This document shows, piece after piece, positions 3,342 to 30,977 of a DNA stretch of 41,885 bases. The DNA comes from a virus. Below the pieces are notes generated by a model, which had not been told where the DNA came from, did no database searches, and saw only the letters and a list, made by a program, of their open reading frames with translations. A program made the translations under genes and the position numbers. Every line of letters begins with the position of its first letter. Position 1 is the first letter of the stretch. The stretch is taken from the IMG/VR virus record IMGVR_UViG_3300032050_000287, positions 1-41,885 of that record. One strand, 5' to 3'.

Positions 3342-3504
3342 ATTTGTAACTTAATTGAATGTCTTTCTTTTTAAGGTTGTAGCGATCAATGTGCTTTTTA
3401 CGATGTTCTTCTGTTTGAAAGTAACATTTACGTGTTTCTTTTCCATCCTTATGAATCAACTTCCATGGAAATTGATCAAACGGAAACTCTTCGCTGTAAT
3501 CCAT
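3331..3504 (-). CDS. small basic hypothetical protein, 57 aa
   Basis: Begins MDYSEEFPFDQFPWKLIHKD, then a strongly basic stretch (EEHRKKHIDRYNLKKKDIQL). From memory this sequence type is common in T4-like cyanophages, with no known function. ATG 3504 overlaps the previous TGA (TGATG). Its basic character would suit nucleic-acid or membrane contact, which is inference. Confidence 0.78.
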   Translation of the reverse strand: MDYSEEFPFDQFPWKLIHKDGKETRKCYFQTEEHRKKHIDRYNLKKKDIQLSYKYDN

Positions 3505-3665
3505 CAGGTAGGTTGCTCAACACGTTGAGTATACACGGCATCAAACAATTCGTCAAGCACCTCACCACAGGTATGATACTCTTTACTGTTCAGCACGGTC
3601 TTATCATACTGATAACGACGCACAGCAGTGTAAATGAGTTTATATTGTTCAGGTGTAAAGTTCAT
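3504..3665 (-). CDS. small hypothetical protein, 53 aa
   Basis: Begins MNFTPEQYKLIYTAVRRYQY and continues with a helix around CGEVLDELFDAVYTQR. It resembles a recurrent cyanophage small protein from memory. ATG 3665 overlaps the previous stop as ATGA. Function unknown. Confidence 0.78.
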   Translation of the reverse strand: MNFTPEQYKLIYTAVRRYQYDKTVLNSKEYHTCGEVLDELFDAVYTQRVEQPT

Positions 3666-3844
3666 TCAGTTCCTCCATAAAGTCGTTGTCCTTCTTCATA
3701 TCCTAGTTGATATGCCGCTTGTAACCACTTGATGATTGCTCCGTAATCATTTGTTTTAGCAGCATAATCAAAGTCATCATAGAACCGCTCAGAGCGGAAT
3801 GAGAACCCTTCCATCTCTTCAAACCAATCATTAAAATTAGTCAT
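3662..3844 (-). CDS. small hypothetical protein, 60 aa
   Basis: Acidic and aromatic-rich (NDWFEEMEGFSFRSERFYDD), then a helix IIKWLQAAYQLGYEEGQRLY. The ALGYEEG-like segment is common in phage helical small proteins. It overlaps the previous gene by 8 nt. Function unknown. Confidence 0.75.
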   Translation of the reverse strand: MTNFNDWFEEMEGFSFRSERFYDDFDYAAKTNDYGAIIKWLQAAYQLGYEEGQRLYGGTE

Positions 3845-10661: not shown

Positions 10662-11135
10662 TTAAGTTGTCTCTTGTAACATTTTTCTATAACAATCTCT
10701 GGCAATAATTGCTTCATCTATCGTATCATAAGTGCCAACATAGTAGTTAATCTTTTTATGCCACATATTGACTTGATATTTACCAGATGGGACTTTTTTT
10801 ATATTTCTCAACTCACCATTGGGACATCTGCGATTTATATTTTGTGTAGAGTTGTCTGCCCATCTTATATTGCCAGGAATATATCCAGAGTTGTTGTTTA
10901 TTCTATCAATAGAATATCCTTCTGGTCTTTCACCCAAATTTTCATCAATATATTTTAGAAACTTTATAAAACCTGGCGGAGTTTGTGTGGTGCCGTGAAA
11001 CCCTCTTTCAGACCACTCTTCAAAAATTTCTATCCCACGAGCACCATACTCTGAATAGTTTATATTTTTTGGATCTTTACATCTGCGTATCATACCATTC
11101 CAAGTATGATATAGGGGGTGTTGTGATACTTTCAT
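10662..11135 (-). CDS. HNH homing endonuclease with AP2-like C-terminus
   Basis: A 157-aa free-standing homing endonuclease. Residues 6-45 (HPLYHTWNGMIRRCKDPKN, YGARGIEIFEEW) and the HNH-like core (GYSIDRINNNSGYIPGNIRW, residues about 92-111) match the HNH/AP2 family of phage endonucleases. The C-terminal 45 residues (GKYQVNMWHKKINYYVGTYD, DEAIIARD) resemble the AP2/ERF DNA-binding fold. It sits as an insert between two small genes. Its start is only 2 nt from the arm of an inverted repeat with a late promoter in the loop. Confidence 0.88.
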   Translation of the reverse strand: MKVSQHPLYHTWNGMIRRCKDPKNINYSEYGARGIEIFEEWSERGFHGTTQTPPGFIKFLKYIDENLGERPEGYSIDRINNNSGYIPGNIRWADNSTQNINRRCPNGELRNIKKVPSGKYQVNMWHKKINYYVGTYDTIDEAIIARDCYRKMLQETT

Positions 11136-12587: not shown

Positions 12588-13376
12588 TCAGTTAAAAAAT
12601 TGATCTAAAGGATTAAAAGATCGGATTCGTTCCATTGCCATATTAACATACTCCTCATGAATTTCAACTCCAAGATACTTCCGTTTCAAATCAATACATG
12701 AAATTGCAGTTGTCCCAGATCCCATAAAAGGATCAAGAACTAAATCACCAATGTAACTGTAATACTTAATGATACGATCAGACAGTTCTTTTGGATAGGG
12801 CGCTAAATGATCTGAATGTGTTTCTGGATTGATCTTCCATACGTTAGATCGTTCATAGTCTTCATTGACAAGTGATTGCTCTAATACATCACCATCATAA
12901 GATCGAACAACTTTATCAATTAAGAATGGTGCTGGTTTCTGAAATACAAAGATAGTCTCAGTTACAATGTTTGGTTTGTATGCAACTGGTTTGCGATGTT
13001 GAAAGAATCCACCATTACGATTAATTGATGCACCCTCAGGTTTTAACCAGATAATATCATCAATGTATTTCCATCCCATTTGTTCCATTAAAGTAAAAAA
13101 ATGAAATGGAATTGCAAGACGTTTACTCTCATGTGCCCGTGATTGTCTTGCCTCAATCACTGGAGAAAGATTTACAACACACATTCTACCTGGTTGAGTG
13201 ACTCTTAACACTTCAAGAAACACATTTCTCAAGAAGTCAAGATACTCTTGGTAAGTTGGCCAAGTTGAATATTCTCTGGCGTTATAATATGGAGGAGAGG
13301 TGCAAGTAAGATGCACACTCTCACTTTCTATTTCTTTTAAAAGTCGGGATGAATCTCCCTGTAAGATCTGATCCAT
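12588..13376 (-). CDS. DNA methyltransferase, amino-type (SPPY)
   Basis: A 262-aa S-adenosylmethionine-dependent DNA methyltransferase. The catalytic motif IV SPPY is at residues 27-30 (LTCTSPPYYNAREY) and the AdoMet-binding motif I FMGSGTT at 217-223. The order IV-before-I places it in the beta class. SPPY is typical of N4-cytosine enzymes, but N6-adenine enzymes of this class are not excluded. HLAPYPKEL (190-198) is the usual motif X neighbour. It would protect phage DNA from host restriction or serve regulation. No matching restriction gene was recognised; an HNH gene overlaps its start by 40 nt. Confidence 0.9.
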   Translation of the reverse strand: MDQILQGDSSRLLKEIESESVHLTCTSPPYYNAREYSTWPTYQEYLDFLRNVFLEVLRVTQPGRMCVVNLSPVIEARQSRAHESKRLAIPFHFFTLMEQMGWKYIDDIIWLKPEGASINRNGGFFQHRKPVAYKPNIVTETIFVFQKPAPFLIDKVVRSYDGDVLEQSLVNEDYERSNVWKINPETHSDHLAPYPKELSDRIIKYYSYIGDLVLDPFMGSGTTAISCIDLKRKYLGVEIHEEYVNMAMERIRSFNPLDQFFN

Positions 13377-13795
13377 TGAATTTTTCTACTCGATGCTTTG
13401 TTACTATCACAATCACCGTTAATTAGTGATTTTCGACCATGACACAGTTTACAATAAGTTTTAACATTGTCTGGAATATTGTTATGATGATCGCCATCTA
13501 GATGGTCAAGATCCAAACTGTTTTCAAATCCAACCCATCCATCTTTAGGAACTGGACAAGTCCATCCAAGATGTCCATCATGATTTTCACAATATGATTT
13601 CTTATGAATTGTAACTCCAGGAATTACTTTACCATTCTTTCGAGCACTAGTGCAACGGGAACATTCGGATTTGAAAGACCAATACTTCCATTCTCGCACA
13701 AGAACTTTATTATTACAACCATCATTGACACATGTAGGAAGTTCATGCCCTTCGACAAAGAACTTCTCTTTCATTTGTTTGGAAAGACTCAACAT
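13337..13795 (-). CDS. HNH endonuclease family protein with zinc-binding Cys
   Basis: A 152-aa protein started at ATG 13795 (a TTG two codons earlier is less likely). It has paired cysteines (TCVNDGCNNK; ECSRCTSARK) and an HNH core (LDLDHLDGDHHNNIPDNV, then TYCKLCHGRKS) with a structural CxxC. This resembles HNH/endonuclease VII-like nucleases found in T4-like cyanophages. It overlaps the methyltransferase start by 40 nt and begins right at the end of the previous small gene, so it is an integral operon gene and not an obvious homing insert. Confidence 0.82.
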   Translation of the reverse strand: MLSLSKQMKEKFFVEGHELPTCVNDGCNNKVLVREWKYWSFKSECSRCTSARKNGKVIPGVTIHKKSYCENHDGHLGWTCPVPKDGWVGFENSLDLDHLDGDHHNNIPDNVKTYCKLCHGRKSLINGDCDSNKASSRKIQWIRSYREIHPDF

Positions 13796-13797
13796 AA

Positions 13798-13938
13798 TCA
13801 AAATACAATGTTAGAGGACATTACACGGGCATTTGGATATTGTGCAAGAGCAACTTGTATTGCTTCTTGACGATTGCGGGCATAACACTCAACATAGAAT
13901 GTTTGTCCACTAACCATGCAGGTGACACGATGCTTCAT
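13798..13938 (-). CDS. small conserved protein, 46 aa
   Basis: ATG 13938 has GAGG 7 nt upstream; the longer open frame to 14067 lies within the helicase gene and is rejected. It reads MKHRVTCMVSGQTFYVECYA, RNRQEAIQVALAQ, NPNARV-like YPNARVMSSN: a beta-beta-alpha-beta type small protein that I recall downstream of helicases in cyanophages. Function unknown. Confidence 0.78.
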   Translation of the reverse strand: MKHRVTCMVSGQTFYVECYARNRQEAIQVALAQYPNARVMSSNIVF

Positions 13939-17240: not shown

Positions 17241-18698
17241 TTATTTATGAATGGCGTTTATAATTTCTTTATGTGATATTCTTTGATTTTCTAATTTTTT
17301 AATTTTCGTATATTCATAATGTTCTTTTGCAAATTCTAAAATCTGTTGTTTATTTCTTTTTGAATTTAAGAAATCTCGAATTGCATTTTTATCAAACATA
17401 TTTAATCCGTTTGAAACTTGAATAAAATTATCAAGTGACCAAACAAATTTGGTTGAATTATTGCCTAGATTTTTAGCATCTAAAAACTCGTACTTACATT
17501 TTTCCTCAAAATCTCTGACCCATTCAGTTTTATTTTCAGTCATGTATTTCCAAAAGTCAGAATCAAATCTATTTGTATTATAATGAAGACAAATAAAATC
17601 CACGATGACTTTATAAGCATTTAGGTTTATTTCATTAAATTTTTTTCTATTATATTCCAAGAAGGTTAAATTTGAATTTAAAGAAATAAAATCTTTAATT
17701 TGATTTATGATAATGTGAATACCAGTAGACTCTAGCGGTTCTACAAATCCACTTGAAAGACCAATTGCTAAACAATTTCCAACCCATGCTTGATCATAAT
17801 ATCCAGGTTTATAGTAAATAATTTTGTCTGTTTGCAATCTAACTCCAAATTTTTCTAATAGCCAACAATTATATTTTGTTTTTGCTTCTTCATCTGAAGT
17901 AAATCTGGAAGAATAAAGATATCCAGTTCCATATCGATTTCCAATTGGTATCTGCCATATCCATCCATTATCTGTCGCTTCTGCTAACGTGTAAGATGGC
18001 ACTTCTTCAAAATCATATGGAATTTGTTGTGGAATTGCTCTGTCAATTGGCAAATAATCTGTAATGTCATTCCACTTTACCTTTAAGTTTTTAATTAACA
18101 TAGAGTTAAATCCAGAGGCATCAATATAAAAATCTGCTTTTACATTTCCACTATTTTTGAAATCTATACTTTCAATTTGATTATTTTCAATATTAATTTT
18201 TTCAGCAATATCATCAATAAAATCAATCTCGTTATTCATCTTTCCAAAAATATAATTTGAAAATTCTTGTGTATCAATGTGCAGCGCATGACTATAATCA
18301 AAAGTTTTTTTTGGTAATGTAGATGTTGCTTCATTATAAAGTAGACCACCATTATAGCAATCGTTTAGAATAGAATAGATTGCACTTGATTGATCCGACT
18401 CCCCCCAAAAAGAAACTTCTTTAAATCCATGAAAATATTCTGTATTGGGAATCCAATTTTTAAAATTTATTCCTAATTTTACACTTACATTTAAGTCTCT
18501 AATTAAATCTTCAGTTTTTATTCCCAGAGAATTAAGGAATAAATGAATAATTGGTGTAGTACTTTCACCAACACCTATATTTTTTCTTTTGGCATCAAAA
18601 TATAGAGAAACTTGAACTTTATCTCCCCAATATTTTTTAATCATTGATGCTGCAATCAATCCAGAGGTTCCTGCCCCCAAAACAATAAATTTTTTCAT
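17241..18698 (-). CDS. flavin-dependent tryptophan halogenase-like enzyme (VirX1 type)
   Basis: A 485-aa FADH2-dependent halogenase-like protein. The FAD-binding GxGxxG is at residues 8-13 (LGAGTSGL) and GVGEST at 42-47. The halogenase signature GWIWQIP is at 245-251. K74 (in VSVKLGINFKNW) aligns with the catalytic lysine of PrnA/RebH and E323 (EPLESTGI) with the active-site glutamate, so it should be active. A viral halogenase of this family, VirX1 from cyanophage Syn10, is established to iodinate varied substrates. Here the gene lies between two fibre/adhesin genes. Its natural substrate is unknown. Confidence 0.9.
   Translation of the reverse strand: MKKFIVLGAGTSGLIAASMIKKYWGDKVQVSLYFDAKRKNIGVGESTTPIIHLFLNSLGIKTEDLIRDLNVSVKLGINFKNWIPNTEYFHGFKEVSFWGESDQSSAIYSILNDCYNGGLLYNEATSTLPKKTFDYSHALHIDTQEFSNYIFGKMNNEIDFIDDIAEKINIENNQIESIDFKNSGNVKADFYIDASGFNSMLIKNLKVKWNDITDYLPIDRAIPQQIPYDFEEVPSYTLAEATDNGWIWQIPIGNRYGTGYLYSSRFTSDEEAKTKYNCWLLEKFGVRLQTDKIIYYKPGYYDQAWVGNCLAIGLSSGFVEPLESTGIHIIINQIKDFISLNSNLTFLEYNRKKFNEINLNAYKVIVDFICLHYNTNRFDSDFWKYMTENKTEWVRDFEEKCKYEFLDAKNLGNNSTKFVWSLDNFIQVSNGLNMFDKNAIRDFLNSKRNKQQILEFAKEHYEYTKIKKLENQRISHKEIINAIHK
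17242..17249 (-). promoter_or_regulatory. late promoter CATAAATA fused to a stop codon
   Basis: Minus-strand NATAAATA 19 nt before ATG 17223. The halogenase stop TAA (17241-17243) shares its last bases. Confidence 0.68.
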
Positions 18699-20511: not shown

Positions 20512-23500
20512 TTATTTATCCGTAAGTTTTTGTTCAAGGTTTTCAACCTTCGCAGAAAGTTCCTTGATTGCTTCAACAAGAAGTGGAACGACCTTATGAT
20601 AATCAACTGCCAAGTAACCATTATCTCTTGTTACAACCGCCTCAGGAAGAACTTCAAGAACTTCTTGTGCGATTACTCCAACATCATTTCCTTCCTTGCC
20701 AGACTTTTCATTCCAAGTATAAGTATTACCACTAATGGAAAGAACTTTTGCAAGAGGATCATCAATTGGAGTAATATTATCTTTTAGTCTCTGGTCAGAG
20801 GTATAAAATGCAGTAATATCACCAGTTACATTTAAATCGGAATTGATTTGAGTTGTTGTATTAATTGCTACCTTTGATCCAGATACTGCACTTAATTTAA
20901 GATCTCCAGATGATGTGTCAATTGTATTATCATCAGTTTGTGCTAATTTAATATTTCCAAGTTGAACAGTAGAACAATTTAATGTGCCATTAATATAAAC
21001 ATTTTTACCAATTCCTACTCCACCAGAAATAATTAAATCCCCAGTTGTTGAAGAAGTAGACTCTGCTCCTTGTGTCAGTCTGACTGTATTATTAAATGTT
21101 GTTTGTGATTTTGCTCTAATTTCTTTATTAAATGTTACGGGACCATCAAACTGAGAAAGAACTTGTCCAGATGCACCACCTTCTACAAGTAATCTCTCTT
21201 TAATTGTAACTTCATCAAATACGGCACTTAAACGATTAGGATTTTCACCAGTAACTGTTGGTTTTGGAATATCATAAGAAACAACCTCTCCACTTGCTGC
21301 AGATGTTTTGGTATTTCCATTATAAAAATCTCCAGAATTGTTCATTCCAGTATATACAACAATACCACCAGAACGTTCCTGAGAGTTCGCTAAAAAGTTT
21401 TCTTGATCATTTAGTGTTTTAACCTGAACTTGTGGCAATCCAGTCGAATAGTTACCTGGACCATATCCAAGATATTCAAAGGTGTGCCCTGACGCACGAA
21501 GAATAGAAGGTCTTCTGAACTCAATTGCAATTGGATTAATTCTACGAATCAACGAGTTGACATCATGATTTTCTTGAACTGTTCCAAGAGATCCACGAAT
21601 TACAGTTGCAGAAGTATCATTACCACTGCTGGTAATTCTCATAATTTCATTATCAATTTGAATATAACATCCAAGTGGCAATCTTTGTGCTGTTCCAATA
21701 CCAGTATGACTAATATTAATTGTGCTTCCTGTTGTTAACTCAGATGTTAAAATAAATGTTTGATTATCATAAAAAGAGACATTACGTGTTCCAAAATTTT
21801 CTCCATTTTCATCAGAAATTGCATTATTTGAAGAAAGTCCATGTTTTAAAACATATCCATTTGTTGCCGAAATTGAAGAGTTTGTAAGTGCTGTAAATGT
21901 CGTTACACTTTCTCTCTTATCGACAATGTAATCTCCTATATTATTATTATTAGAATCAATTACACGGAAACGATTTCCAGAAAGAAGACCATGAGCATCG
22001 TAAGTTGTAAATGTTGTAATACCTGCTGAGGAGTTGTATGCTGTCCCGCTAATTCTAATTGATGAGTTAACGACAAAAGCGTATTGTCCAGTTTGTATTG
22101 TTGGATCTCCAACAGTTTTAGCGATTGCAATTGATGTTGAAGATCCAATAGAAGTAATTCGATAATAACCATCTGTTACTGTTCCTGCACCGGTGATTTG
22201 AACAACGTCACCAATGTTTGTAGAAATTCCTGATGTTGAGACTGTGTAAAGAGCACCACTTCCAGCACCAATTTTACTTTGATCAAAATATAGAGATCCA
22301 GCAGTATAACCAGATCCAGGTGCCATAATTTCAACAGAAGTTACAATTCCACTACTCACAATTACTTTTGAAGTTGCACCACTCCATGAACCTGTTTGAG
22401 ATCCATTAAGAAGTTTAACATTATAATATGTTCCATTTGTATAAGATGTTCCACCATTTGAAATTGAACCAGTTACAATTCCTGAAAGACCATGAAATCT
22501 TGCAAAAGTTAATGTTGCAATTCCAGAACTTGATTCAACAGAAGAAATTGTAAGAGCAACTCCAACATTTTTAAGAGAGAGATCTGTTGTTTCACGTGTA
22601 ATACTTTTCTTTAGATCATTTGTCTCAACCGCACCAATTGGAGCACGTTTTGCAAATGTTTTTGCTGCTTGAGGGTTATCATTTACATTATCTCTATCTA
22701 ATTGAGGATATAAATCGACAGGTAATTGTCCATACTTAAGATTTGTAAAAAGATTTGCACTAATTGCATTACTTGAGTTTAAAACATATAAGTGATAAAT
22801 TCCATCTTGTTGATTGAAAATATATGGAGAAATAATTTCATTTCTGTAAACAAATAAATTACTTTGCCAATCATTCCTTTCAAATCTTGGTAGATTTTGA
22901 TCTCTAGTTGATGTTGTATCTGTAAATGTTCCAGCAGATTGTGTTACGCCCGTAATTGTATTTGTTGTTGTATATCTAAAGGTATATGCATCAATAATAT
23001 TAGATACAATGAATCTACCATTGTATCCAGAATCAAATCTTCCCGTAGAATTTGTTGAACTTTTAACATTTCTAATTGTTACTACTTCACCAACTTGAAC
23101 ATTATGTGGAAGTTCAGTTAATACCGTAACTACATTTGAACTTTCTGAACAAGATGCAATCAATCTTGGATTTTTTAAATATGCATAATCAGTGCTTGCA
23201 ATGCTAGTTCTTGTAAAATCAGTGTCAGTTCTAACACCTGTAGTGCTGGATTCTTGAAGAATAAATCCCGTTTCTGGATCTTTTGCGTTTGCAAATTCTT
23301 TTGGAATAACAACTCTCAACTTATAAATTTTTTCGTCTAAACTTCTTTCATCAGAAATACGCTTCACATAAGCAAGATCTGTTGTTGGACCAAAAGTTAT
23401 CGTTCCACCAATACTCAATGCATTATAAATTTCATTGTTTTGATTAACGTGAATAAACCAGTTATTATTTTGACTATCAAATTGAATAGGTGATCCAAGT

Positions 23501-25722
23501 TCTCCAGATTCCCTGTCAGAAACTCTACTTAAAATGTGAAGATTTGTACCACCTACAACTTGAATTGGTTTGTTTTGAAGAGCATTTGTATACGATGCTG
23601 CAAGTTTTACTGTATTATTATCTCCAGGATTAATTGCATAGTAAATTTGATGAGGATCAATATTTTCTGGCAAATCTCCATCATCACTTATGATTATGAT
23701 CTTTTCACCCGTTAACAGATTGTTAGATCCAATTGTAAATGATGTCGTAAATCCAGTTGGAGGTGTAGTGGTTGCATCATAAAATTTAACAGAACTTGTT
23801 GTTCCTAATGCAGTTGTAAGTCCAGAAGAACTAATTGCATTATTACACATGTAAATATTTGCTTCACTAGTTCCAGTTCCCAAAGGAACGTATAACTTAT
23901 CATTTAATTTTGCACCGATTCGATATCCTTGTGTAAGAGATGATGGGGCAACATTAATTGAGTTAAATCCAAAAAGATAAAGGTGACTTGAGATACCAAC
24001 TTGAGTTGTAAGTCCTACGTTTAAAGATAACCACTCAATGTTATCTTCAACAGAAGAAACTGATCTTGGTGTGACTATAGAGGTAATAAAAGCTTTATTA
24101 TCCTTATCAAATGCTTCTTTTTTAAATCCAGAAGAATTTAATGAAATTTGACCAAAGTTTGAGTTTGAGTTTGTAATTGATGCATCACCACCAGTTTCTG
24201 CATCAAAATGCTTATTAAATCCAATTGCAAATACAGAAACAATTTGAATGAAAGCATCATTTGTAATTTTAATATGACTTGTTTCCCATCCTTGACGATA
24301 GATAGCGTCTGGATCTAAATGATAAACTCTATTTGTATCTGTTTGAGATGCTCCATTTGGAAGATCTCCACCAGAAACAGTAGTGTAATCAATTTTTTCA
24401 TAAGATCTAGAAGATTTATTATATTTTGCAAAGGCACGATCATCCTTTTGAAGAGATACTGCAGTAAATTGTGCAACAACGGTGCTTCTAAATCCTGATG
24501 CTTTGCTACCATCAGCATGAAGACCATTCATACCCCAGACAGAGCGTAATGAACAGTTAAAAATGTAAGGGGATGCGCCAGATACAGTATCAGTCTCAAC
24601 TGTTACTGTCGCTCCGGCAGCACTTGGACTTGGAATTGTAGGAACTGTTGAAAGAAGGTAAGTAAATGATGTTGAACTTAAAACAGATTGAACAGTTGTT
24701 GAAACATTATAAACCCCTACACCAACTCCTTTAACTTTAATTGGAGTACCTACGTTTAAACCATGCTCTGTTGTGGTTGTAACTGTAACACGTGCGTCTG
24801 CAACACTGCCATTACCAGAAAATATTGAAGCAATTGTAATTGGATCTGAAGCAAAAGCACCGACAATTTGAAACTCTGGATCTCTCTTTGCAAAACCAAG
24901 AGGATTCGTTGGATATTTATCTTCTGCTTTAATTTCACGATATGCATTATAAGCATTTGAGACTTTGCTATAATACATATCAAGATCGGTGAGACCTGTT
25001 GCAGTTCCACCAGCACCACCAATAGGCAATGTAATATTATTTACACCATCACAAAATTCAAAACAAGTTACTTTATGGTGTGAAAAATTAGGTGTTGAGC
25101 GATAGATTGATGAAAAATCATCTGGATTTGTATATACCGTGCTACTTGCATCTGCATCAAAAATAGAAAATTGCCAAAAATAACAAGCACCAGTAATTCT
25201 AAAAATTGCAGATTTAGATACAGTATCATCTGTTGGATTTGGAACATATTTTGGACGAATTTTGGTCTTTCTTAAATCAAGACCAACAATAGAAGTTCCT
25301 CTTGGAACAACAACACCACCATACCAACTATTAAACTTATAAAGAATATTATCTTCTTGTGCAAGATCAAAGTTTGAATTTAATCCAAGTGAAAAAACAT
25401 TTGTAGCAGTATCTTGACCACCAGATCGATTGACTGCTTTTGCTCCACTGTTATTATAAACTGCATATCCAGGTCTATTATCAATTAAATGCTCACCGGG
25501 AAATAGTAAAATTGTGGTTTTTTCTACTAAATCATTATTATCTCCAGCAATATATGAGAATCTTGCCGCTTCTAATAATGCTCTTTGTATTGTTTTGAAA
25601 GGGCGAGCAAGAGAATTACCTTGATTCTCAATACTATCAGTTGAATCAAGATCATTTGGATTGACGTAAAGAATACGACCTTCTGTATTCTTGATAAAAT
25701 TGTCAAGTTTATTCAGACCCAT
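20512..25722 (-). CDS. very large fibre-like structural protein with C-terminal S74 chaperone
   Basis: A 1736-aa virion protein. The N-terminus (MGLNKLDNFIKNTEGRILYV, then ARPFKTIQRALLEAARF) looks like the first turns of a pectate-lyase-type beta-helix and recurs in cyanophages. The centre is beta-rich with GSGYT-type repeats. The last 95 residues are an S74 intramolecular chaperone: SDQRLKDN with putative nucleophile S1642, then DVGVIAQEVLEVLPEAV and a closing coiled coil. S74 domains trimerise fibres and then cut themselves off. T4 gp10 or a long-fibre role cannot be decided from sequence. Confidence 0.85.
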   Translation of the reverse strand: MGLNKLDNFIKNTEGRILYVNPNDLDSTDSIENQGNSLARPFKTIQRALLEAARFSYIAGDNNDLVEKTTILLFPGEHLIDNRPGYAVYNNSGAKAVNRSGGQDTATNVFSLGLNSNFDLAQEDNILYKFNSWYGGVVVPRGTSIVGLDLRKTKIRPKYVPNPTDDTVSKSAIFRITGACYFWQFSIFDADASSTVYTNPDDFSSIYRSTPNFSHHKVTCFEFCDGVNNITLPIGGAGGTATGLTDLDMYYSKVSNAYNAYREIKAEDKYPTNPLGFAKRDPEFQIVGAFASDPITIASIFSGNGSVADARVTVTTTTEHGLNVGTPIKVKGVGVGVYNVSTTVQSVLSSTSFTYLLSTVPTIPSPSAAGATVTVETDTVSGASPYIFNCSLRSVWGMNGLHADGSKASGFRSTVVAQFTAVSLQKDDRAFAKYNKSSRSYEKIDYTTVSGGDLPNGASQTDTNRVYHLDPDAIYRQGWETSHIKITNDAFIQIVSVFAIGFNKHFDAETGGDASITNSNSNFGQISLNSSGFKKEAFDKDNKAFITSIVTPRSVSSVEDNIEWLSLNVGLTTQVGISSHLYLFGFNSINVAPSSLTQGYRIGAKLNDKLYVPLGTGTSEANIYMCNNAISSSGLTTALGTTSSVKFYDATTTPPTGFTTSFTIGSNNLLTGEKIIIISDDGDLPENIDPHQIYYAINPGDNNTVKLAASYTNALQNKPIQVVGGTNLHILSRVSDRESGELGSPIQFDSQNNNWFIHVNQNNEIYNALSIGGTITFGPTTDLAYVKRISDERSLDEKIYKLRVVIPKEFANAKDPETGFILQESSTTGVRTDTDFTRTSIASTDYAYLKNPRLIASCSESSNVVTVLTELPHNVQVGEVVTIRNVKSSTNSTGRFDSGYNGRFIVSNIIDAYTFRYTTTNTITGVTQSAGTFTDTTSTRDQNLPRFERNDWQSNLFVYRNEIISPYIFNQQDGIYHLYVLNSSNAISANLFTNLKYGQLPVDLYPQLDRDNVNDNPQAAKTFAKRAPIGAVETNDLKKSITRETTDLSLKNVGVALTISSVESSSGIATLTFARFHGLSGIVTGSISNGGTSYTNGTYYNVKLLNGSQTGSWSGATSKVIVSSGIVTSVEIMAPGSGYTAGSLYFDQSKIGAGSGALYTVSTSGISTNIGDVVQITGAGTVTDGYYRITSIGSSTSIAIAKTVGDPTIQTGQYAFVVNSSIRISGTAYNSSAGITTFTTYDAHGLLSGNRFRVIDSNNNNIGDYIVDKRESVTTFTALTNSSISATNGYVLKHGLSSNNAISDENGENFGTRNVSFYDNQTFILTSELTTGSTINISHTGIGTAQRLPLGCYIQIDNEIMRITSSGNDTSATVIRGSLGTVQENHDVNSLIRRINPIAIEFRRPSILRASGHTFEYLGYGPGNYSTGLPQVQVKTLNDQENFLANSQERSGGIVVYTGMNNSGDFYNGNTKTSAASGEVVSYDIPKPTVTGENPNRLSAVFDEVTIKERLLVEGGASGQVLSQFDGPVTFNKEIRAKSQTTFNNTVRLTQGAESTSSTTGDLIISGGVGIGKNVYINGTLNCSTVQLGNIKLAQTDDNTIDTSSGDLKLSAVSGSKVAINTTTQINSDLNVTGDITAFYTSDQRLKDNITPIDDPLAKVLSISGNTYTWNEKSGKEGNDVGVIAQEVLEVLPEAVVTRDNGYLAVDYHKVVPLLVEAIKELSAKVENLEQKLTDK
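20513..20520 (-). promoter_or_regulatory. late promoter GATAAATA fused to a stop codon
   Basis: Minus-strand NATAAATA 19 nt before ATG 20494, overlapping the TAA stop of the 1736-aa gene. Confidence 0.68.
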
Positions 25723-25751: not shown

Positions 25752-25758
25752 TATTTAG
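25752..25758 (-). promoter_or_regulatory. late promoter-like CTAAATA fused to a stop codon
   Basis: CTAAATA on the minus strand, 30 nt before ATG 25722. The stop codon of the 25755-26060 gene (TAA) lies within it. The same 7-mer occurs on both strands between gp54 and gp4. Confidence 0.6.
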
Positions 25759-26060
25759 TTAGTCAAATCTTCCTCATCATACTCATATTCTATCTCTTCT
25801 GGCATATCTTCAGGATTTTCTAACTCAACTGGAAAGAGACAGGGGTGTGCCTCCTCATCAATCAAGTAGAAAGAACTTCTATATAAATCGTCTGGTTCAA
25901 ATGTGCGATTCTTATCTGCTTCTCTGCACAAATCTTGATCGTATAAGTGTCCCTCTGGCAACTCATCGAAGGTAAATGGAACAGAGTTGATAAAATACAT
26001 CTTCACAATCATACTGCCGTCATTGTACCAGCAGTATGCAGAATCTATACGATAAGACAT
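25755..26060 (-). CDS. acidic hypothetical protein, 101 aa
   Basis: Start taken at ATG 26060 (MSYRIDSAYCWYNDGSMIVK); the frame extends upstream into the tRNA-Leu gene, which is not credible as coding. The C-terminus is extremely acidic (PEEIEYEYDEEDL). It lies between the tRNA-Leu gene and the giant fibre gene and has its own late promoter. Function unknown. Confidence 0.74.
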   Translation of the reverse strand: MSYRIDSAYCWYNDGSMIVKMYFINSVPFTFDELPEGHLYDQDLCREADKNRTFEPDDLYRSSFYLIDEEAHPCLFPVELENPEDMPEEIEYEYDEEDLTN

Positions 26061-26080
26061 AGGGGTTTTCCCATATCTTA

Positions 26081-26088
26081 TATTTATT
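26081..26088 (-). promoter_or_regulatory. late promoter AATAAATA
   Basis: Minus-strand NATAAATA between the 3' end of tRNA-Leu (26094) and ATG 26060, 20 nt upstream of the start. Confidence 0.65.
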
Positions 26089-26093
26089 TTTAG

Positions 26094-26375
26094 TAGGAGC
26101 GGCGAGACTTGAACTCGCATAGCCGAAGCCGACGGATTTTCTTACCACTACGACTTTCGCCGCCTCATAGAGTTTGTGGTCTGGACTATACCTTCACCAT
26201 ATCTTGTGATTTAGGTGCTCCCCGTCTAGTCTCTACACCTTCATCTTTCGATGCTTGGCTCGGTATTGCCATTTTACAGGTTTCACCGAATTTGAGGAGT
26301 TACACTCATGAGGTTTCCCAAATGAGGCTCAATTTTACATAAGTCCGTTGTGTCTACCAATTCCACCACGCTCCC
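26094..26375 (-). tRNA. tRNA-Leu(UAA) interrupted by a group I intron
   Basis: Exon 1 is 26341-26375 (GGGAGCG acceptor strand, D arm GTG...CAC, ACGGA anticodon stem, loop CTT). Exon 2 is 26094-26140 (AAAATCCGT, short class II variable arm, T arm GCGAG-TTCAAGT-CTCGC, CGCTCCT and discriminator A). Joined loop CTTAAAA gives anticodon UAA. The acceptor closes with a G1-U72 wobble, and CCA is not encoded. The interruption lies between U34 and A35, exactly the site of the classic cyanobacterial and plastid tRNA-Leu intron. It reads TTA, a codon favoured by AT-rich phage genes. Confidence 0.93.
26141..26340 (-). other. 200-nt group I intron in tRNA-Leu
   Basis: P1: exon CTT can pair with the intron GAG (in AAATTGAGCC), with U-G at the 5' splice site. 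P3: CGGT pairs with ACCG. The conserved core is visible: GGCAATACCGAGCCAAGC, AGAGACTAGACGGGG, and P7 as GACTA with TAGTC (AGGTATAGTCCA). A GGC-GAAA-GTC hairpin fits P9. The intron ends in G just before AAAATCC, the expected terminal G. No open reading frame is present. The layout follows the cyanobacterial tRNA-Leu intron. Confidence 0.93.
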
Positions 26376-26417: not shown

Positions 26418-26418
26418 G

Positions 26419-26492
26419 TGCAGGTTGTGGGGATCGAACCCACCTTAGCCGAATTATGAGTTCGGTGCTTTCAACCAGAGAGCTAAACCTGC
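26419..26492 (-). tRNA. tRNA with CAU anticodon (Met, or Ile2 if lysidine-modified)
   Basis: Acceptor GCAGGTT/AACCTGC is seven perfect pairs. The anticodon arm is CCGAA-CTCATAA-TTCGG, and the T arm GTGGG-TTCGATC-CCCAC. The D stem has one mismatch, the discriminator is A, and there is no encoded CCA. It lacks the initiator features (unpaired 1-72, three G-C pairs in the anticodon stem). Whether it is elongator Met or AUA-reading Ile2 depends on TilS modification, which sequence reading alone cannot decide. Confidence 0.9.
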
Positions 26493-26496
26493 ACGA

Positions 26497-26568
26497 TGGG
26501 AACAGCGGGAGTTGAACCCGCGCTAAGCACTTATAAGGTGCCCGCTCTAACCATTAAGCTATGCTCCC
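26497..26568 (-). tRNA. tRNA-Ile(UAU)
   Basis: Acceptor GGGAGCA/TGTTCCC (one G-U), D arm GCTT...GAGC, anticodon arm GGCAC-CTTATAA-GTGCT, T arm GCGGG-TTCAACT-CCCGC, discriminator A, no CCA. The loop gives anticodon UAU, which reads AUA directly. Most bacteria instead use lysidine-modified CAU for this codon. Confidence 0.88.
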
Positions 26569-26570
26569 AT

Positions 26571-26772: not shown

Positions 26773-26801
26773 ATTATAGCATCACTCGCCATAAACTGCA
26801 A
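26773..26801 (-). promoter_or_regulatory. candidate sigma70 promoter overlapping a late box
   Basis: -10 TATAAT (26773-26778), 17-nt spacer, -35 TTGCAG (26796-26801; 3-4 of 6). A TATAAATA (26766-26773) abuts the -10. Both lie very close to ATG 26759, so any leader would be short. Confidence 0.5.
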
Positions 26802-26982
26802 GGTCTGCGTATTCAATTTGATCGGGTTCAAGATTAGCAGTGACAACTTCAAGGACGTTCATAAACTCTTGAACAGTATCACATTCTACCAGACGCTCGT
26901 TGCCTTGATCACTCAGGAGCAAGAAGGTACGACTGCATACATCAATTACAATGCCCTGTACGGTCTCTTGTGCAGTGCTCAT
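26782..26982 (-). CDS. small hypothetical early protein, 66 aa
   Basis: Reads MSTAQETVQGIVIDVCSRTF, LLLSDQGNERLVECDTVQEF: a beta-rich first half, then an acidic helical end. It is placed 26 nt downstream of a perfect sigma70 promoter. Function unknown. Confidence 0.75.
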   Translation of the reverse strand: MSTAQETVQGIVIDVCSRTFLLLSDQGNERLVECDTVQEFMNVLEVVTANLEPDQIEYADLAVYGE

Positions 26983-28946: not shown

Positions 28947-30977
28947 TTATGTTGGACAATCTATTGATGTTTGAATACCTACTTTATCTCTAATTGTTTG
29001 TTGAGATATTGTACCAAGAATTGGTTTCAAGATAGCACCAAATCCAGTGTCTGAGTTAACTGTAATTACAGGAATATCAGAAACCTCCAAAATATTTAGA
29101 GGTGTTGCCGAAAGTATTCTACCATTATCAACTGTTAAACTATAAGTATTTCCAAGATTATCGGTTGCAGTATCATTGTTAGAGTATTCTAATCCAGCAG
29201 TTTGTACTATAACATCAGTAACACCATAAGCATCTTGATTTTGCACTAATGGATATCCTTCACCAGAAGATAGCATATAAATTGCAGTTACTTCTCCAGC
29301 ATCATTGATTACTGCTCTACCTTTTGCACCATATCCTAATCCACAACTATCACTAAATTCAACAAAGGGTGGAAACCGATATCCAGAACCAGGATTTGTA
29401 ACTACAGATCCAATAATACTTGCAGTCTGTGTTACATTATTGATTGCATTTATGAGTGGATTTCTAGCACCAAGAATGGCAATTGCTGTTGCTCCAGATC
29501 CTCCTCCACCAAAAATGTTAATTGTAGGAGAACCACAAGTCGCTGGGAATGTTGGAATACACTCACCCAATCCGTTGACAGCATCCTGTAAGATATCGTT
29601 TGAGAATACATCTGCAATTCCTGCAACACCTTCAACTGCAGAAGTTACATCTCCAACAACACTACCAATAGTGTTTGCAATATCAAAAATACTATTAAAT
29701 GATTCTAGAGGATCTATACTACTCTTTGGACCAACTCCAACTACCCATTCTTTAGTTCCATCACACTTATTATTGCTTTGATTACAGTCAAAGAGACCAC
29801 CAGATCCACTAAATAAATCTTTTGCACTTTTAATAAAATCAACAACACTAAAAACACCACCCAATAAAGCAGAAATACCATCTAAAGCAGAAGATAATCC
29901 ATCAGCAATCGCATCGGTAATTGTATTAATAAGAGATCCGATGAATTGCTCTGCTATACAAGTTACAAATCTTTCAACATTTTCGAGAAGTGATTCAAGT
30001 AACTGAATAATCAAATCTTTAAGACCCTCAACAATTGCATTTGCGACACAAGAAAGTGCTTCTTCTAGAACTTTAATCGGAATTACAAAAACTTCATTAG
30101 ACTTATATCCTGCAGTATGTGCTGCTGCTGGACTACCAGTTGCAGCAAGAACTGACCCATAAACACTAATATACAGTGCTTGTAATGCTTTTGGAATAAT
30201 TCCTGGATTTTTCTCATCACCAACTAGATACTCATAAATTATATTAAAAATTTCACCAACTAACCAGTTGACTGCACCTTTAATTACCTCAGCAGTATTT
30301 TGAATTGCCTGTTTAAAATCAGAAATTTTTCCTTGGGCATCTTGTATATCTTTAAGTAAATTATCAACTTCGGATTTTACTGTTTTAATTGTTGTATCTT
30401 CACAAGTATCGGCAAATACAACTTTTTTTCCAATACCACTATAAGCAGATATTTCTTTTAATCTTGCTGCTACTTCTGGAGGAACTGCTCTTGGACTTTT
30501 TTGAGATTGCTCTGTTGCTTCATTTGATTCATCAGATTCTATTCTACCAGTTCCTTTTGGACTTTTTACTCTAGATGTGTGTCCAGTAAAAGGAGTAAAA
30601 GGATTTTTATATTCGGCAGTTGACCAATCACTTGTATGACCAAGTGTTCCCATAATAACTGGGATTTGTGCATTATCACCATCCATGAAAAATCCAATGA
30701 CCATATCGCCAGGTCTTATTTTTGGATTTACTGCATACTTTGCTGCACCACTTCCAGTAGTAGTTGGGAACATAACCTGCGCCCATGGAAGATCATCATT
30801 TGATAATTCAGAAACGTCTAAAGGATGGTATCCTATAATTCTAACTTTGTATCTGTATCCCCATCCACCACCATTTGCTTGCTCTTCCCACGATTCTACC
30901 GGTGCAATTTGACCTAACCACCAACGAAAACCGTCTCTACCAATAAAATGACTTTGAAGTAATGATTGATCTAACAT
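28947..30977 (-). CDS. 5: baseplate hub protein gp5, without lysozyme domain
   Basis: A 676-aa protein. Residues 10-140 match the N-terminal OB fold of gp5 (IGRDGFRWWLGQIAPVESW; PWAQVMFPTTTGSG; RPGDMVIGFFMDGD; PVIMGTLGH). The T4 lysozyme domain is absent. A helical region (about 200-460) and Gly-rich repeats with GSGYRFPPFVEF and SGEGYPLV follow, and the protein ends without a needle. The following gene supplies the needle. Position after the gp27-like gene fits the gp27-gp5 hub. Confidence 0.85.
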   Translation of the reverse strand: MLDQSLLQSHFIGRDGFRWWLGQIAPVESWEEQANGGGWGYRYKVRIIGYHPLDVSELSNDDLPWAQVMFPTTTGSGAAKYAVNPKIRPGDMVIGFFMDGDNAQIPVIMGTLGHTSDWSTAEYKNPFTPFTGHTSRVKSPKGTGRIESDESNEATEQSQKSPRAVPPEVAARLKEISAYSGIGKKVVFADTCEDTTIKTVKSEVDNLLKDIQDAQGKISDFKQAIQNTAEVIKGAVNWLVGEIFNIIYEYLVGDEKNPGIIPKALQALYISVYGSVLAATGSPAAAHTAGYKSNEVFVIPIKVLEEALSCVANAIVEGLKDLIIQLLESLLENVERFVTCIAEQFIGSLINTITDAIADGLSSALDGISALLGGVFSVVDFIKSAKDLFSGSGGLFDCNQSNNKCDGTKEWVVGVGPKSSIDPLESFNSIFDIANTIGSVVGDVTSAVEGVAGIADVFSNDILQDAVNGLGECIPTFPATCGSPTINIFGGGGSGATAIAILGARNPLINAINNVTQTASIIGSVVTNPGSGYRFPPFVEFSDSCGLGYGAKGRAVINDAGEVTAIYMLSSGEGYPLVQNQDAYGVTDVIVQTAGLEYSNNDTATDNLGNTYSLTVDNGRILSATPLNILEVSDIPVITVNSDTGFGAILKPILGTISQQTIRDKVGIQTSIDCPT

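Follow-up and report, generated by a model that had tools for sequence, protein, structure and literature searches.

A probable phage-lineage group I intron in a cyanophage tRNA-Leu(UAA) gene and its predicted spread by HNH homing

The window (the whole stretch of DNA that was analysed, 41,885 bases, positions 1 to 41,885 of IMG/VR virus record IMGVR_UViG_3300032050_000287) carries a minus-strand tRNA cluster amid phage structural genes. Based on ARAGORN and Rfam, tRNA-Ile(UAU) lies at 26495..26569 and tRNA-Met(CAU) at 26418..26492, in the same cluster as an interrupted tRNA-Leu(UAA) gene. Directly downstream of the tRNA-Leu gene is a small phage gene on the same strand (25755..26120; PHROG 4134, by PHROG match and synteny), which in some relatives is separated from the tRNA by an HNH gene; its listed start at 26120 falls inside the tRNA, and the true start is probably near 26060. 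Upstream of the cluster, another small minus-strand gene (26782..26982; PHROG 662, by match and synteny) serves as a marker of the syntenic locus, whose downstream border is the gene for the tail fibre protein (20512..25722, minus strand; PHROG 529). The baseplate hub and tail lysozyme is encoded at 28947..30977 (minus strand; PHROG 1922), and further PHROG matches in the window are to tail proteins, tail tube and single-strand binding protein. A gene of the tryptophan halogenase family (PHROG 2928) stands among the tail genes at 17241-18698. The nearest record in the phage collection, in which very near records may be absent, was that of S-SRM01, a Synechococcus phage from fresh water (33% of a 24.9-kb query matched at 77%). 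Contamination of the contig with host DNA, an objection named in the original prediction, was rejected: the tRNA-Leu gene is flanked by phage baseplate, tail-fibre and tail-tube genes, and a second IMG/VR contig, L066 (8,598 nt compared), is 100% identical to the window across the tRNA-Leu locus; as far as seen, the contig is phage DNA.

On the minus strand, the 5' exon of tRNA-Leu(UAA) (26341..26375) ends with ..GGACTT, in which U34 is nucleotide 26341, and the 3' exon (26093..26140), which includes the long variable arm, starts with AAAATCC, in which A35 is nucleotide 26140. Both exons were delimited by the sequence, by ARAGORN with introns allowed and by the fold of the spliced molecule. 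Between U34 and A35 lies a 200-nt group I intron (26141..26340), identified by the Rfam model RF00028, ARAGORN with introns and covariation, with A as its first base (26340) and G as its last (26141). The original prediction had placed an insert ending in G at exactly these coordinates, between U34 and A35 of a class II tRNA-Leu with anticodon UAA; sequence and ARAGORN agreed with it, and the spliced 83-mer folded into a class II cloverleaf with the UAA anticodon. Without introns allowed, ARAGORN missed the gene in the window; with introns allowed, it called tRNA-Leu(taa) at c[26093,26375] with a 200-nt intron. The covariance model proposed as another check (RF00028, Infernal) matched 26350-26164 with 58.5 bits and E 1.9e-12, above the cut-off of 50. 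The intron was correctly described as lacking an ORF: the sole frame of at least 60 aa over it is a 77-aa antisense frame, and the window intron contains no endonuclease gene. Its site matches that of the cyanobacterial introns, as had been proposed, and the view that a functional tRNA requires splicing is supported, splicing itself being predicted.

Known introns of tRNA-Leu are generally assigned to subgroup IC3. To evaluate the fold by comparison, we built an alignment of 48 distinct phage introns, none longer than 232 nt, that share the insertion site (A1; identical introns and L066 left out) and counted 59 named pairs drawn on the window sequence. These pairs were formed in 91.1% of cells, against 75.8 in shuffles, and none of the 500 shuffles scored as high; because the structure was taken from one aligned sequence, the percentages lean towards it, and the two-sided changes do so much less. 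Two-sided changes were found in 41 pairs, with a covariation score of 0.430 compared to 0.151 for shuffles, and in slid structures only 27-42% remained paired. The 5' strand of P7 (GACUA, 26227..26231, minus strand; partner UAGUC, 26184-26188) was paired in 99.6% of cells with two-sided changes in 3 of 5 pairs, that of P3 (26294..26299, minus strand; partner 26218-26223) in 99.0% with changes in 6/6, and the GAAA-capped hairpin of the P9 domain (26150..26163, minus strand) in 99.6% with changes in 5/5. P8 showed two-sided changes in 3/4 pairs, and P3, P7, P8 and P9 were each paired in at least 99% of cells. The P1 U.G at the 5' splice site and the terminal G were present in 48/48 introns; P1, being invariant, yields no covariation. 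Helices that vary between phages were P2 (73.7% paired), P5 (79.2%) and P6a (83.1%), and the inner two pairs of the small P9a stem were formed in 27.4%. The folding energy of the single sequence was only mildly unusual (z -1.97; 7/200 shuffles as good), so that we used covariation in its place. P3, P7 and the GAAA-capped P9, the core motifs read from the letters in the original prediction, are thus correct and all covary; on this comparative evidence, which is strong, the insert was confirmed as a real group I intron.

Viral contigs searched in two pattern scans, together with L002 and L003 from the phage collection and the window itself, yielded at least 93 phage loci with an intron in a tRNA(UAA)-type gene and at least 79 distinct introns. 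The anticodon is CAA in at least one of these genes (L130), and 16 encode a class I body, with fewer than 80 nt in the mature tRNA. Among the matches listed, and apart from the same virus in L066, the intron closest to that of the window was found in L092. The two introns are 97.0% identical, whereas the L092 tRNA(UAA) has 73 nt, belongs to class I without the long variable arm and is only 54.7% identical to the window in its exons. L119 (exons 98.8%, intron 91.5% identical to the window) and L067 (96.4% and 90.0%) have almost the exons of the window but less similar introns. Since a near-identical intron resides in so different a tRNA, intron and tRNA body move separately.

Related introns were also seen elsewhere in phages. 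The isolate jumbo phage Atu_ph07 of Agrobacterium has an unannotated tRNA-Leu(UAA) with a 278-nt intron (L512:1883-2244; ARAGORN and blastn). In Gordonia phage Daredevil, ARAGORN called a tRNA-Lys(UUU) with a 238-nt insert (L005:1339-1650) at a place where no tRNA is annotated; the core of the insert resembles the window intron but is below the reach of RF00028. Further related introns occupy the anticodon loops of phage tRNA-Asn, tRNA-Ser and tRNA-Arg (L082:2184-2452 and 3427-3740; L120:3837-4115; L057:1565-1841), and group I introns stand beside or between pieces of capsid genes in a deep-marine phage (L006:1446-1626 and 2155-2335) and in HTVC120P (L004:1464-1654), two of the three being near the tRNA lineage.

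For phylogenetic analysis, cyanobacterial introns were taken from an Rfam-based draw and a core-pattern scan, and introns longer than 300 nt, identical introns and L066 were excluded. A quick tree of 110 introns placed 57 of the 58 phage rows on one side (SH-aLRT 97), and 39 tRNA-Leu introns of bacterial genomes, cyanobacterial by title or draw, formed one group (94). A careful tree was restricted to tRNA-Leu introns, without five long-branch phage introns (L160, L194, L217, L224 and L197); it split 45 phage rows from 39 cyanobacterial rows with 100/100 support, and the split was present in 100% of 200 bootstrap trees, although the bootstrap had not settled. The window intron is on the phage side of this tree and not inside the cyanobacterial tRNA-Leu clade, contrary to what its proposed origin by capture of a host gene had led one to expect. 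Class I and class II tRNA bodies are intermixed on the intron tree: to account for the 11 class I rows, 9 changes of tRNA class are required, and supported branches make at least 5 of these unavoidable. The cyanobacterial and plastid trnL intron is like that of the window in its site between U34 and A35, its homologous core, its compactness and its lack of an ORF. Unlike it, the phage lineage forms a separate branch, is found in both classes of tRNA body, in part with HNH genes, and has another 3' end (GTRGTAAG and variants, compared with mostly GAGAATG-like ends in cyanobacteria; some of the phage introns had been selected by the former signature).

The common site and the homologous core would also be expected if the whole phage lineage had been acquired long ago from a tRNA-Leu intron of cyanobacteria or other bacteria and had later spread from phage to phage. 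The tree is unrooted, and an AU test did not reject a topology with cyanobacteria and the window as one side of a branch (p 0.198), a constraint that allows re-rooting of the phage part and does not put the window inside the cyanobacterial clade. Against such an origin, the phage side of the quick tree also holds the phage tRNA-Asn, Ser, Lys and Arg introns and two of the three capsid introns, several of them on long branches with unsure placement; with these non-Leu introns on the phage side, the lineage is not tied to tRNA-Leu. We consider this ancient acquisition unlikely, though it deserves some weight.

How the introns might move was indicated by their neighbours. With a profile built from eight intron-encoded members, and with distances measured by stop-to-stop frames, HNH endonucleases of one family were found inside 17 of the 31 phage introns longer than 300 nt among the at least 93 loci; the long introns of L157, L190, L207 and L210 have frames of at least 175 residues outside this profile. 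Pfam HNH_3 matched 12/12 of a chosen HNH set at E up to 0.01, and PHROG 10822 did likewise. Among the 62 short-intron loci, 21 have a free-standing member of the same family no more than 50 nt from the tRNA (downstream in 8 cases on the same strand and in 8 on the opposite one, upstream in 5), and in one further short-intron locus it is 4.7 kb away. Counted by distinct intron sequence, among at least 79, the HNH gene is inside in 15 and beside in 16. In 54 of the 93 intron loci listed, some of them on contigs that end close by, no HNH gene of the family was found inside or near, and none adjoins the window tRNA-Leu by the profile search. As a control, 314 other tRNA genes of the intron loci gave 6 HNH pairs in 5 loci within 60 nt. 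Free-standing and intronic enzymes are akin: over 148 residues, the free-standing HNH protein of L105 is 58.8% identical to that encoded within the tRNA-Leu intron of L003, an uncultured phage of 595 kb. In the window, ORFs 610-1404, 10662-11135 and 13337-13801 look by eye like GIY-YIG or HNH homing endonucleases; a Pfam search of these three ORFs gave no match, and the last of them, ORF 13337-13801, is distantly related to the HNH protein found at the tRNA (E about 5e-10 across 49 aa).

Because the intron loci had been chosen by the intron, we searched viral contigs independently with the HNH alignment alone. This search returned at least 600 stretches, and we analysed the best 80 of at least 528 relatives, which are the nearest relatives of one query and not a sample of all HNH enzymes. 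Among these best 80, 73 are inside or within 120 nt of a tRNA(UAA) gene: 38 beside an uninterrupted gene, 20 beside an intron-bearing gene and 15 inside the intron. Three others are beside other tRNAs (Leu-CAA, Leu-GAG and Met), and four have no assigned tRNA; of these four, two adjoin the 3' half of an intron-bearing tRNA that is truncated by the end of the contig, a third is located at the edge of its contig, and upstream of the fourth, L558, the sequence looks by eye like the 5' half of a tRNA-Leu. At 80% identity, the best 80 form 43 groups, of which 40 include a tRNA(UAA) case and 6 include both uninterrupted and intron-side states. Bacterial tRNA-Leu normally has a long variable arm; phage tRNAs with a UAA anticodon and a class I body (below 80 nt, no long variable arm) occur in 20 of the 38 uninterrupted HNH-side cases and at L007:3116-3188.

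Uninterrupted tRNA(UAA) genes beside HNH may differ from others in the anticodon stem. Among the matches listed, the usual G30-C40 and A31-U39 pairs were present in 11 of 34 unique genes beside HNH versus 103 of 124 elsewhere (p 3.4e-8). The difference is clear in class II (5/17 versus 72/75; by unique anticodon arm, 3/14 versus 26/29) but not in class I (6/17 versus 31/49, p 0.054; by arm, 5/13 versus 8/21, p 1), again among the matches listed. All but 6 controls were drawn with D-loop patterns and are biased in this respect, and tRNAs within 700 nt of a contig end were excluded; the pattern scans alone supplied 3 unique HNH-side cases, too few for this comparison. We suggest that the swapped stem pairs beside HNH may represent a resistant target.

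The small gene of the window at 25755-26120 is present in 37 of the 80 HNH loci (the best 80 of at least 528), and 30 of these have the same tail fibre gene as well. At this one cyanophage locus, all eight combinations of tRNA class, intron and HNH were found. With a class II tRNA, there are an intron without HNH (the window, L119 and L017), an intron with HNH (L548, L533 and L174), HNH without an intron (L536, L553 and L555) and neither (S-PM2). With a class I tRNA, there are an intron without HNH of this tRNA-side family (L050 and L092), an intron with HNH (L567 and L572), HNH without an intron (L529, L537 and L563) and neither an intron nor HNH of this family (S-SRM01). The flanking gene of S-PM2 is only 40% identical, so that its orthology to the locus is weaker. 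In S-SRM01, a different gene, annotated as an HNH endonuclease in the RefSeq copy, lies between tRNA-Ile and tRNA-Met (L007:2591-3010). In L092, a 213-residue frame weakly related to window ORF 610-1404 lies upstream of the class I intron tRNA (L092:2075-2790), and no tRNA-Met was called where this frame stands.

Collaborative homing calls for presence and absence of the intron at the same locus, and this polymorphism was found here; it also calls for an endonuclease next to the intron-bearing gene, which is absent at the window. Homologous recombination between co-infecting phages could by itself reshuffle tRNA bodies and introns, the HNH gene being a passenger of the tRNA cluster. The conserved flanking genes of the locus are compatible with this, and so is the company that related HNH genes keep elsewhere: relatives occur in 203 phage-collection records, and in 10 of 11 picked records an uninterrupted tRNA, of many isoacceptors, lies within 114 nt of the HNH gene. 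In two picked uncultured phages (485 and 642 kb), the tRNA nearest to HNH is an uninterrupted tRNA-Leu(UAA). As HNH relatives stand beside many kinds of tRNA, specificity for tRNA(UAA) is limited to the nearest relatives. Mere reshuffling accounts poorly, however, for the 73 of the best 80 at tRNA(UAA), in several orientations, and for the residence of the same HNH family inside the intron; we judge it quite improbable.

The original prediction attributed the intron to capture of the whole tRNA-Leu(UAA) gene from a cyanobacterial host. The same insertion position and the detectable relationship of cyanobacterial tRNA-Leu introns to that of the window (up to 66.4% identity) speak for such a capture. 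The likely hosts are alpha-carboxysome cyanobacteria, a group inferred here with the alpha-carboxysome gene CsoS2, which we take to mark the group of Prochlorococcus, Synechococcus and Cyanobium. Of 292 genomes drawn from the cyanobacterial phylum, 86 had an RF00028 match under strict filters and 35 had CsoS2, with no overlap (RF00028 in 0/35 CsoS2 genomes); in the family of one CsoS2-bearing genome, RF00028 matched 0/41. RF00028 is leaky: with E values up to 0.1 allowed, it failed to find the related introns of L002, L003, L004 and L005, so that its absence from hosts is weak evidence, and the uninterrupted host genes carry the argument. In the likely host family, the anticodon-arm pattern of an uninterrupted tRNA-Leu(UAA) was present in 94 of 201 genomes by a strict pattern and in 159 of 201 by a looser one, whose listed matches include a few loops of the tRNA-Leu(CAA) type, all from genomes in which a UAA-type loop was matched as well. 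Viral stretches with the cyanobacterial core 17-mer included no tRNA-Leu intron among the 120 matches listed, and one tRNA-Asn intron. S-PM2 has the same tRNA-Ile/Met/Leu cluster without an intron. The 100/100 split with its differing 3' ends, and the discordance of exons and intron, whose closest match outside the same virus sits in the other tRNA class, likewise argue against capture, which we rejected as very improbable. What stands of the earlier reading is an ORF-less group I intron in a phage tRNA-Leu(UAA) gene at the cyanobacterial/plastid site; its arrival with the whole host gene does not. That the insert is a decayed remnant that no longer splices, in a tRNA pseudogene, would suit the missing HNH of the window, but is extremely improbable given intact core helices and splice-site features, exons that fold as a tRNA, and the retention of both exons and intron in L119 and L067.

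We conclude that the ORF-less intron of the window probably belongs to a phage lineage and was not brought by a host gene, that it is predicted to be self-splicing, and that it would spread from phage to phage by HNH homing. During infection, the pre-tRNA would be transcribed and the intron would fold into P1-P9, excise itself with a guanosine cofactor and join U34 to A35. The product would be a tRNA that reads UUA, which is the most frequent leucine codon across 20 window genes (244 of 631 Leu codons). The tRNA gene that the intron presumably entered is of a type that cyanophages already possessed. An HNH enzyme lodged at tRNA(UAA), free-standing or intronic, would, judging from its distribution, cut uninterrupted tRNA(UAA) alleles at or near the anticodon arm, the part best shared by class I and class II bodies; repair from an intron-bearing genome would install the intron, which may then shield the carrier gene from cutting. 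At the window, the HNH neighbour may have been lost after the gain of the intron, or the intron may have been received without it. Because the window has no neighbouring HNH of this family, its own intron is a putative mobile element at most. Empty sites in the same cluster of S-PM2 (class II) and S-SRM01 (class I) favour homing. Against it, unrelated tRNA bodies share only about 11 nt round the site (GACTT-AAAATC, the hyphen marking the insertion site), which is short for ordinary break repair; the flanking genes common to syntenic phages could supply the homology.

A broader proposal, to which we give somewhat less than an even chance, is that phages of many hosts contest the anticodon arm of tRNA-Leu(UAA) as a homing site, with the HNH family attacking uninterrupted tRNA(UAA) genes of co-infecting phages and carriers escaping by an intron or by base swaps in the anticodon stem. 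If so, the window intron would be both a shield and a spreading element in competition over tRNA genes, and phages would display the stages of the proposed route along which an ORF-less intron and a free-standing enzyme unite into a mobile intron. As intron, endonuclease and tRNA body occur in all combinations at one orthologous locus, the origin of mobile introns from separate parts becomes directly testable, as do tRNA genes as targets in phage-phage competition.

The proposed system resembles known ones in part. In cyanophage S-PM2, collaborative homing involves the psbA group I intron and F-CphI, whose cleavage activity has been demonstrated (PMC6083498, as far as its available text goes). 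A free-standing endonuclease beside the intron-bearing gene, a protective intron and intronless targets, described there, are proposed here; that system, however, targets psbA with an Endo VII-like enzyme, whereas the phage tRNA system has a tRNA target and an HNH enzyme, on many contigs and in three arrangements (PMC6083498, same portion). SegB of T4, according to the accessible part of PMC2988022, is likewise encoded by an endonuclease gene lodged between phage tRNA genes and linked to inheritance of the tRNA region, but it is a GIY-YIG enzyme with a target in a tRNA intergenic region and no intron. The capsid introns of pelagiphage HTVC120P and Deep1-GF2-KM23-C739 are similar to the window intron in the core (78.0% over 123 nt, 91.9% over 74 nt) but split capsid genes and not tRNA genes; the third capsid intron has a long branch in another part of the tree.

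Group I introns, the trnL site and collaborative homing are already known. According to the part available of Hausner and others 2014, all phage introns then known were in protein-coding genes, despite the many phage tRNA genes (PMC3984707); in the present analysis, at least 79 distinct introns were found in phage genes of the tRNA(UAA) type. In the sections available, a jumbo-phage overview (PMC7824862) and a crAss-like phage paper (PMC7886860) likewise mention introns in protein genes, and the S-SRM01 paper lists tRNA-Leu(TAA) and suspects a psbA intron (PMC8557907). The word 'intron' is absent from the main text of a virus tRNA-gene survey (PMC6409571) and of a huge-phage paper (PMC7162821), and the accessible portions of PMC11878797, PMC11835236 and PMC13096335 contain nothing on phage tRNA introns. 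In the open-access literature, part of it available as excerpts, we found no description of an intron in a phage tRNA, nor of a combination of these known elements in the tRNA genes of phages, together with an enzyme family linked to tRNA(UAA); a report in a subscription journal would be missed.

Beyond phages, the group I core 17-mer was also seen in tRNA-Tyr introns of Omnitrophota contigs (L251, L267, L270, L310 and others) and in tRNA-Asn introns of Elusimicrobia and archaeal contigs (L242, L271, L276, L303 and L325).
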